From the NCBI GenBank assembly GCA_017547385.1, contig JAFYPU010000014.1:1-64000 (forward strand): a stretch of DNA of 64,000 nucleotides, read 5' to 3'. Positions 9,713 to 60,000 of the stretch are shown here, piece after piece; position 1 is the first letter of the stretch; each line of letters begins with the position of its first letter. The stretch comes from Bacteroidaceae bacterium (GTDB lineage: Bacteria > Bacteroidota > Bacteroidia > Bacteroidales > Bacteroidaceae). The translations under genes were made by a program, and so were the position numbers. The notes beneath the pieces were generated by a model that worked only from the letters and a program-made list of their open reading frames with translations, was not told the DNA's origin and did not search any database.

Positions 9713-9773
9713 AGTGGCAGGCCTTGCCACTTTTTTGGCAGTGCTCGCCACTTTAGTGGCAAGGCCTGCCACT
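9713..9773. repeat. 21-bp phased dyad array, locus A (3 units, 61 bp)
   Basis: Three 19-nt dyads start at 9713, 9734 and 9755, each a 7-nt arm, 5-nt core and 7-nt arm, with TT linkers. The first reads AGTGGCAGGCCTTGCCACT; the third is its exact reverse complement; the middle one has the core GTGCT. The whole is a nested palindrome. It lies between the deaminase and S41 genes, just before a promoter whose -33 box (9773-9778) touches the last arm. Locus 56144-56204 uses the same arm word. Confidence 0.85.
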
Positions 9774-17929: not shown

Positions 17930-18057
17930 AGTATCACGCCTTGACACTACAGTATCACGCCTTGACACTGAAGTCTCAAGCACTTGACACAAAAGTATCA
18001 TGCGCTTGACACAAAAATATCAACGCCGTGAGACAAAAGTATCATGCCGAAGATACT
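17930..18057. repeat. 21/22-bp phased dyad array, locus B (6 units)
   Basis: Six dyads start at 17930, 17951, 17972, 17994, 18016 and 18038. The arm word is AGTRTCA with its complement, and the cores are CGCCT, CGCCT, AGCAC, TGCGC, ACGCC and TGCCG. Unit 1 reads AGTATCACGCCTTGACACT. Left arms mostly have A where the right arm has C, which pairs as G-U only in the minus-strand RNA. It lies between two convergent genes, between their terminators. Confidence 0.85.
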
Positions 18058-25293: not shown

Positions 25294-25354
25294 ATCTACA
25301 AGGCGTTTAGAAGTTTCTACAAGCACTGCAGAAATTTCTAAACGCCTTGTAAAT
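25294..25354. repeat. 21-bp phased dyad array, locus C (3 units, 61 bp)
   Basis: Units start at 25294, 25315 and 25336 with cores AGGCG, AGCAC and CGCCT. Unit 2 reads TTCTACAAGCACTGCAGAA. Unit 3 matches the reverse complement of unit 1 at 18 of 19 positions, so the whole is an inverted repeat with unit 2 at its apex. It lies upstream of the lplA promoter and behind menCE. Confidence 0.85.
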
Positions 25355-25411
25355 TTTTGTAAGCCCCATGTGCCTTTTTCTGACAAAAGGTAAGCATTTG
25401 TGCGTTGTGGC

Positions 25412-32095: not shown

Positions 32096-32108
32096 CCCTC
32101 GACTTTTA

Positions 32109-32195
32109 CTAAGGGGTGCTCAATTATATTGTTGGGCTGAGATCATACCCAAGTACCTGAACCGGATAATGCCGGCGTAGGAAATGGTAGAAGGT
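32109..32195 (+). promoter_or_regulatory. TPP (thiamine pyrophosphate) riboswitch
   Basis: The THI-box is complete: AGGGGTGCT at the 5' side (32112-32120), GGGCTGAGATCATACCC (32134-32150), CCTGAACCGGATAATGCCGG (32156-32175) and CGTAGGAAATGG (32176-32187). CTGAGA and the CCTGA...GATAATGCC strings contact the pyrimidine and pyrophosphate. About 100 nt separate it from the ATG, with a G+C-rich hairpin at 32209-32235 and no U-run, so control at translation or stability seems more likely than termination. It should shut off the receptor when thiamine is ample. Confidence 0.93.
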
Positions 32196-32292
32196 CTTGT
32201 GCAGATTTGTAGCAGCATGCCGGCTGCTCGCTGCTGATTCTCACATCACCATCTAGATCCCCCTTTTCATTATTCACTTAATCATTACGATA

Positions 32293-34632: not shown

Positions 34633-34693
34633 ATCCGCAGTGCTTGCAGAATTTTCTGCGAGCACTGCGGAAAATTCTGCAAGCACCGGAGAT
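34633..34693. repeat. 21-bp phased dyad array, locus D (3 units, 61 bp)
   Basis: Units start at 34633, 34654 and 34675 with cores GTGCT, AGCAC and AGCAC. Unit 2 reads TTCTGCGAGCACTGCGGAA. Unit 3 matches the reverse complement of unit 1 at 16 of 19 positions. It lies between the TonB receptor and RNase Z genes, 80 bp before the rnz -7 box. Confidence 0.85.
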
Positions 34694-37118: not shown

Positions 37119-37150
37119 CAAAGTTAGTGCAAGGCGAGCGCAAAGCAAAA
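37119..37150 (-). promoter_or_regulatory. Promoter of the DUF4494 gene
   Basis: On the minus strand TTTTG (37150-37146), 19 bp, then TAACTTTG (37126-37119), a perfect Bacteroidetes promoter. Copies 2 and 3 of the same repeat have ACACTTTG and TCACTTTG in place of the -7 box and are probably inactive. Confidence 0.75.
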
Positions 37151-37380
37151 GGAAAACCCCTTTTTCTTTTGCTTTGCCGAGCCGCCGCCTAACTTGGGCA
37201 AAGCCAAAGTGTGCAAGGCTCGGCAAAGCAAAAGGAAAATCCTTTTTTCTTTTGCTTTGCCGAGCCGCCGCCTGACTTGGGCAAGGCCAAAGTGAGCAAG
37301 GCGAGCGCAAAGCAAAAGGAAAATCCTTTTTTCTTTTGCTTTGCCGAGCCGCTGCGCCAGACTTGGGCGAAGCCGAAGTG
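37119..37380. repeat. Triple array of palindromic promoter cassettes
   Basis: Three tandem copies start at 37119, 37205 and 37288 (period 86 and 83 bp). Each runs CAAAGT...GCAAGG, then GCAAAGCAAAAGGAAAA, a T-run, then CTTTTGCTTTGCCGAGCCGC and ends ACTTGGGC. The arms around each central A/T run are complementary, so each copy folds as a long hairpin. Copy 1 drives the DUF4494 gene. The rest of the 412-bp gap holds nothing else. Confidence 0.8.
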
Positions 37381-44691: not shown

Positions 44692-44752
44692 ATTTGCAAA
44701 GCCTCCGAAATTTTCGCCTGTGCTTCCGGAAAATTCTGCAGTGCTTGCAAAA
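44692..44752. repeat. 21-bp phased dyad array, locus E (3 units, 61 bp)
   Basis: Units start at 44692, 44713 and 44734, with cores AAGCC, GTGCT and GTGCT. Unit 2 reads TTCGCCTGTGCTTCCGGAA. Arms match less well than at other loci, and unit 3 matches the reverse complement of unit 1 at only 12 of 19 positions. It lies between divergent genes, so it cannot be a terminator for either. Confidence 0.75.
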
Positions 44753-56143: not shown

Positions 56144-56204
56144 AGTGGCAGGCCTTGCCACTTTTGTGGCAGTGCTCGCCACTTTTGTGGCAAGGCCTGC
56201 CACT
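56144..56204. repeat. 21-bp phased dyad array, locus G (3 units, 61 bp)
   Basis: Units start at 56144, 56165 and 56186, with cores GGCCT, GTGCT and AGGCC. Unit 1 is identical to unit 1 of locus A (9713-9731), and unit 3 is its reverse complement at 18 of 19 positions. The flanks of A and G differ, so only the array is shared. It lies upstream of dnaG, in the 496-bp gap 55910-56405. Confidence 0.85.
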
Positions 56205-59918: not shown

Positions 59919-60000
59919 ATCCGGAAGCATTGTAGGAAATTCTACAAGCACTGCAGAATTTTCTACAAGCACTGCAGAAAAATCCGGAAGCACTGCAGAT
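59919..60000. repeat. 21-bp phased dyad array, locus F (4 units, 82 bp)
   Basis: Units start at 59919, 59940, 59961 and 59982. Cores are AGCAT and three AGCAC. Units 2 and 3 are identical (TTCTACAAGCACTGCAGAA), and the same 19 nt appears as unit 2 of locus C. It lies between the divergent porin and DUF1599 genes. Confidence 0.85.

Follow-up and report, generated by a model that had tools for sequence, protein, structure and literature searches.

Known dispersed bacterial palindromes such as REP, ERIC, Correia and the like are recognised by their sequence, and REP palindromes typically have a GTAG or CGTC tag at their foot. REP and BIME sequences are described as extragenic palindromes whose units, in mixed orientation, form short composite arrays (PMC2817692). 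The BrickBuilt MITE of Porphyromonas gingivalis is built from 23-nt direct repeats without spacers, is present in 19 copies in strain ATCC 33277, and carries terminal inverted repeats resembling the ends of the IS5 family (PMC4596501). PINSR, an intergenic and clade-restricted repeat of Bacteroidales, has 177 and 184 copies in two strains and lacks terminal inverted repeats, with about three quarters of its regions common to the strains.

The window, which is the whole stretch of 64,000 nucleotides analysed here, carries seven arrays of short dyads that share some features with these systems. As in REP/BIME, as portrayed in PMC2817692, more than 100 extragenic palindromic copies are present per genome, with units in mixed orientation. 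In the genome of the window, a profile built from 50 copies has at least 153 matches at E ≤ 0.01 (150 candidates scored). Unlike REP/BIME, the arrays have a rigid 21-bp pitch, usually three units (in this genome and its sister species) and unrelated words at the same pitch across the genus. They also lack the GTAG or CGTC foot, the flank consensus of the element being AAAA/TTTT. BrickBuilt, in the account of PMC4596501, resembles the arrays in lying between genes, in having tandem units roughly two helical turns long together with a leader and a tail, and in its narrow host range; the arrays differ from it in their 21-bp pitch, 2-nt linkers and units in both orientations. Unlike MITEs, they have a one-sided leader without a matching opposite end. 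PINSR, compared by description only, is 188 bp long versus 61 bp for the arrays, and its common regions refer to two strains of one species versus two species here. No description of a 21-bp triple-dyad family was found in open-licence PMC papers, among the matches listed.

Anatomy and copy number of the arrays

The genome of the window (G000) consists of 2,354,218 bp in 34 contigs and is 86.5% complete. Its usual element contains three 19-nt units and two 2-nt A/T (W) linkers, 61 bp in total, and is edged by AAAA and TTTT. The sequence contains the three units of array A (9713, 9734 and 9755) as well as an array at each of the seven loci named in the first-pass annotation (Table 1). A single rule had been proposed for the seven loci; A, C, D, E and F are 61-bp three-unit arrays, B differs in unit number, word and period, and G differs in unit number. 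The arm words had been thought to be locus-specific, but most sampled copies share the major word TTCTRCA..TGCRGAA (cores AGCAC, AGGCG or their reverse complements), a minority have the minor word AGTGGCA..TGCCACT (cores AGGCC and others), and locus B has a third word. This third word (AGTGTCA/AGTATCA.., with a 21-22 bp period) was also observed at G000:C9:101351, a copy with a partner in the same gap of the sister genome.

Table 1. Positions of the arrays and other features in the window.
Feature	Position	Strand	Composition	Remarks
Array A	9713..9773		three units, minor word AGTGGCA..TGCCACT	units 1 and 3 are mutual reverse complements; ortholog in the sister genome G008 (L153)
Array B	17930..18057		six units, third word AGTATCA..TGACACT	period 21, 21, 22, 22, 22; unit starts 17930, 17951, 17972, 17994, 18016, 18038
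Array C	25294..25354		three units, major word	mirror-symmetric
Leader of array C	25355..25394	minus, towards the array		3 mismatches to the leader-plus-array-edge pattern
TPP riboswitch	32102-32201	plus		above the Rfam gathering score
Array D	34633..34693		three units, major word	mirror-symmetric
Palindrome	37140-37350		GCAAAGCAAAAGGAAAA..TTTTTCTTTTGCTTTGC	three near-identical copies in alternating orientation, not array-like
Array E	44692..44752		three units, diverged version of the major word	
Array F	56144..56204		three units, minor word	almost identical to array A
Array G	59919..60000		four units, major word	ortholog G008:C9:350122

The full-genome scan that the annotation had called for identified the arrays as a genome-wide family. 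A two-unit pattern, with its spacing left free over 20-26 bp, gave 58 matches in G000 versus 0 for the reversed pattern. Among these, 57 were spaced at 21 bp and one at 22, in agreement with the 7-5-7 unit, the 2-nt A/T linkers and the rigid 21-bp period read from the window. All 35 matches in the sister genome were spaced at exactly 21 bp, and among the 110 centre-to-centre distances between neighbours that did not exceed 26 bp, 105 measured 21 bp. A matrix of the major word detected 31 elements in 200 kb and none in 2 shuffles. Three-unit arrays predominate in G000 (61, besides 2 two-unit and 2 four-unit arrays) and in contig G008:C9 (29, besides 4 and 2), with 20 and 16 lone units, respectively, counted at a loose cut-off.

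Arm pairing by itself does not distinguish the arrays. A blind search of the window for 7-5-7 dyads gave 13 arrays of at least two units versus a Markov mean of 12.4 (30 simulations); only the three-unit class was enriched (3 versus 0.1 simulated). When the likeness between units was also scored (threshold 46), the window gave 7 matches at period 21, compared with 0-2 at six alternative periods and none in a single shuffle. The first unit (U1) agreed with the reverse complement of its own third unit (U3) at 15.14 of 19 positions versus 13.78 ± 0.24 in 2000 permutations, none of which was as high; many elements are therefore mirror palindromes, and this covariation of the outer units may merely reflect element subtypes. 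For the middle unit, both core orientations are common.

Orthologous copies, placement and leader

The two-unit pattern was present in 2 of 61 genomes, G000 and G008. G008 (RGIG4240) is a sister species with 84.6% coding identity to G000. Across named genomes, where records very close to the window genome may be missing, the exact two-unit word occurred in 20 stretches, 19 of them from Bacteroidaceae bacterium RGIG4240 (roe-deer colon) and the twentieth a contig labelled Ruminococcus. The Ruminococcus-labelled contig L046 (JAFTYF010000048.1), from another roe-deer colon sample, contains a typical array and is perhaps a misplaced contig. A model of the major word gave weak matches (1-5 each) in 10 of the 61 relatives besides G000 and G008, the best with an E of 1.6e-5 (G001).

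Contig G000:C9 (200 kb) is collinear with G008:C9, and 20 of its 30 elements have a partner in the same G008 gap. Conversely, the collinear range contains 22 G008 elements, of which 20 are partnered in G000; one of the other two shares an already-partnered gap. A total of 25 pairs were compared, including 19 of the 20 from C9 (one third-word pair was omitted) and 6 of 7 further candidates (one was too close to the locus end). Same-gap copies differ at 2.44 of 17 positions versus 4.01 for different-gap copies, which indicates that copies descend in place. The inner positions of the units agree at 13.63 of 17 (80%) directly, and at 14.56 of 17 (86%) when flips are allowed, a choice of the better orientation that biases the figure upward. 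Fourfold sites agree at 66% (96 genes), flanks at 56% and unrelated flanks at 46%, so that unit identity lies above fourfold sites and flanks, as expected from constraint or local conversion. At G000:C9:190357 and G008:C9:48925, the minor word AGTGGCA..TGCCACT has kept its place between the species with its units flipped.

Among the 75 orthologous units, 54 have the same orientation, 16 are inverted in place and 5 are ties, with the middle unit accounting for 8 of the 16 flips as counted from aligned rows. The clearest flip is C9:106745, where the 61 bp are identical except for an inverted middle core. Exact inversions at C9:72043 (U2) and C9:185065 (U1 and U2) carry the arm differences along and therefore speak for whole-unit inversion over point changes. 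In some other orthologous units the type, not the orientation, has changed (AGGCG versus AGCAC cores; e.g., C9:47498 U1, C9:52700 U1 and C9:96143 U3), showing that unit exchange between copies also occurs, and it may explain part of the flips. The annotation had also described arms matched within each locus and had asked for paired arm changes in orthologous gaps. The left and right arms of one unit showed no covariation beyond the consensus, and the 12 double changes counted between orthologs do not exceed the control (mean 7.8, maximum 21), so that selection for pairing is unsupported.

Throughout the 464 kb examined in G000, copies sit in intergenic gaps at a frequency of about one per 5-8 kb; 6 lie well inside automatically called ORFs, which were taken for over-extended gene starts. 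Arrays occupy 32 of 101 tandem, 13 of 53 divergent and 13 of 49 convergent gaps of at least 60 bp, so that no gap type is clearly preferred. A role as intrinsic terminators was rejected, as divergent and convergent gaps hold arrays equally often. Relative to random choice among gaps of at least 90 bp, spacing in the three G000 contigs is even (coefficient of variation, CV, 0.45, 0.43 and 0.29 versus 0.84, 0.88 and 0.72 for random placement; 0/5000, 0/5000 and P 0.012). The regularity in G008:C9 (400 kb) is not significant (CV 0.78 versus 0.90, P 0.18).

A 40-nt leader (CTGACACTTTG...CAAAA) stands on one side of 36 of 106 copies in the sampled contigs when at least 8 of the 11 letters of its word are required. 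At 9 of 11 letters it was found beside 32 of the 106, at a fixed distance of exactly 40 nt and never on both sides. Genome-wide, the leader with the array edge (≤3 mismatches) gave 60 copies in G000, 43 in G008 and 0 in the reversed control, and the leader pattern (≤2 mismatches) was found in G000 and G008 and in none of the 56 other genomes of the genus. On its right side the array is bordered by a short conserved flank. On the far side of the element, no conserved end matching the leader, i.e. no terminal inverted repeat, was found. A search for the leader without an array in 864 kb of G000 and G008 contigs gave two weak word matches, neither convincing. Seven G008 gaps without the element were aligned for a target-site duplication, and the junctions were too diverged to read.

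In contigs with two or more leaders, leader direction agrees with the contig majority in 40 of 50 cases in G000 (P 0.005) and 32 of 41 in G008 (P 0.0096). Leaders oppose the sign of the GC skew in 28 of the 36 sampled copies, which are not independent as G000:C9 and G008:C9 are orthologous, and in 21 of 28 in G000 alone. By inspection of the tabulated contexts, leader direction has no apparent link to local gene direction. In G000:C9, G000:C26 and G008:C9, the sign of the GC skew is opposite to the majority coding strand.

Arrays in other species of the genus

Eighteen other genomes of the genus (816 kb) were scanned with a motif-free score for triplets of similar dyads. Matches peaked at periods 21 (46) and 22 (16), with 2, 2 and 3 matches at 19, 20 and 23, respectively, and 10, 12 and 24 at 18, 24 and 15. 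Shuffled sequence gave 0 matches. No 21/22 peak was found in 12 genomes, one from each of 12 other families (327 kb in total), which gave 8 matches at 21 (a single genome contributing 5), 4 at 22, and 6, 5 and 6 at 19, 20 and 23. Short or masked stretches were omitted, which concerns G002, G006, G021, G027, G031 and G032 of the genus and G039, G041 and G055 of the other families. Some matches in the genus represent ordinary tandem repeats, and 4 of 37 are situated within ORFs. Of 46 arrays from the 18 genomes that were tested for recurrence, 25 have further two-unit copies in the sample of their own genome (15-86 kb), and 42 have no copies in other sampled genomes; G015 and G017 share one word.

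Outside the sister pair, the G016 unit TTCTATC-GCTGC-GATAGAA with a W linker follows the same 7-5-7+2 plan, and its cores GCAGC and GCTGC are mutual reverse complements. The G016 pattern, with 15 spacings allowed, matched 35 times in this genome, always at exactly 21 bp, and was absent from five other genomes; with the pattern reversed, G000 and G004 gave one match each. Unit numbers in the seven G016 arrays displayed range from three to eight, and the outer units are mirrored in three of these arrays. As strict patterns gave 2 matches in G007 and 3 in G001, high copy number is established for G000, G008 and G016 only. The complete genome G004 has no 21-bp array at threshold 46 in 200 kb, and one match at 22. 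G013 (L139, L140) carries two families, one at 21 bp (AATTATCTCCGAGATAATT-like) and one at 22 bp (TTCTCATCGCGATGAGAA-like).

None of 26 arrays of other species has both of its flanking genes on one sampled G000 or G008 stretch; by a one-sided match, locus L129 of G007 may adjoin the same gene as a G000/G008 element. The gap before an S41 protease gene holds an array in G000 and G008, and no array was seen by eye in this gap in the 28 other genomes inspected (58 searched). G076 and G022 have other short tandem repeats there.

Competing explanations and possible role

We tentatively interpret the arrays, with confidence a little short of even, as dispersed extragenic elements resembling REP/BIME that function as DNA and are kept for phased binding of a putative protein. 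The main rival, which appears rather unlikely to us, is a purely selfish non-autonomous mobile repeat (MITE/REPIN-like) of about 130 bp, comprising leader, array and right flank. Such a repeat would insert in one preferred direction relative to replication, gap availability and exclusion would produce the evenness, and separate expansions would produce the species words. The fixed, one-sided position of the leader and the short right flank suit this explanation, as do the confinement of the leader to two genomes, its common direction within contigs, the copies missing in G008 and the species-specific words. However, the element has no matching far end, no readable target-site duplication and no convincing array-free leader, 20 of the 22 collinear G008 elements are partnered, and separate transposons are not expected to share one pitch in unrelated words. 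An association with RAYT (Y1) was not found either: G000 and G008 have one Y1_Tnp each, with no array in the surrounding 3.5 kb, and Y1_Tnp was not found in the array-bearing genomes G016, G005, G001, G013 and G026, which are 74-90% complete, leaving the absence uncertain. RAYT was accordingly rejected as the general mobiliser. A mobile origin itself is plausible because of the one-sided leader and the copies missing in the sister genome.

Three further explanations were weighed. Phased A-tracts in nucleoids are a known idea (e.g., PMC3940949), and intrinsically curved or stiff DNA, with A/T tracts at the linkers every two helical turns, no sequence-specific reader and inner letters of minor importance, would agree with the A and T tracts at the linkers and both flanks in G000. 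It would also agree with the A+T fraction of 37 arrays from 15 other genomes, which is 0.59-0.84 at the linkers and outer arm positions and 0.28-0.69 in the core (background 0.48). We consider it improbable, since the conserved inner words, the dyad symmetry and the count of three are left unexplained and some arrays (G035, G034) have linkers containing G+C. Still less probable is a function in transcripts, in which 61-nt hairpins would serve as terminators, stabilisers or processing sites. Arrays A, C, D and F do fold strongly as single strands (z -7.8 to -10.7, DNA parameters), with A/T runs alongside, but E and the 61-bp pieces of G and B fold weakly (z -1.33, -0.85 and -1.74), and RNAalifold found 5 pairs and no common fold among 50 aligned copies of the major family, a test weakened by mixed unit orientation. 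The preference of the annotation for a DNA over an RNA setting is borne out by the lack of a G.U excess on the sense strand (GT 43 versus AC 56), which argues against RNA pairing; in addition, divergent gaps hold arrays as often as convergent ones, and the sole Rfam gathering match in the window is the TPP riboswitch, located elsewhere. Invertible switches, with a site-specific recombinase flipping units for phase variation, seem very improbable. The exact in-place inversions between the sister species and the two common core orientations of the middle unit would be expected of them, but the outer units and linkers vary too, and a segment of 17-19 bp would not ordinarily allow two recombinase sites to synapse.

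Under the favoured interpretation of DNA elements kept for phased binding, each site in the window species and its sister would as a rule display three dyads on the same face of the duplex, at intervals of exactly two helical turns. From this geometry we infer that the dyads most likely bind a dimeric chromosome-organising or regulatory protein, probably cooperatively. Copies would stay at mostly fixed, fairly evenly spaced intergenic positions. The dyads may form hairpins at replication, and template switching could then flip units and cores in place. Such switching at hairpins is documented (PMC8794818) to give rise to inverted loops and repaired stems, and it fits the observed flips. The changes between the sister species resemble those reported in PMC8794818 in loop inversion and stem repair; those described there concern RNA genes, and the present ones whole 17-19 bp units of dispersed DNA arrays. 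The word would drift while length, phase and dyad symmetry persist, until each species has its own, all words presumably descending from one ancestral element. Related species share a near-identical pitch with unrelated letters, which suggests that geometry, not sequence, is what the cell keeps. A more far-reaching version, which we regard as doubtful, is that the genus keeps a chromosome-wide lattice with conserved geometry (7-5-7 dyads spaced by two helical turns; in the window species, three at each site and one site per 5-8 kb) and a direction tied to replication. Hairpin-driven inversion and concerted change, acting along with a putative co-evolving reader, would rewrite its letters in each species.

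Since the pitch is common to the genus and the words are not, a reader that senses geometry, or one that co-evolves with hundreds of sites, becomes testable. The orthologous copies constitute a natural record of in-place inversions at short bacterial palindromes. Even spacing and a common leader direction would tie these elements to chromosome organisation and replication, which are poorly known in Bacteroidota.
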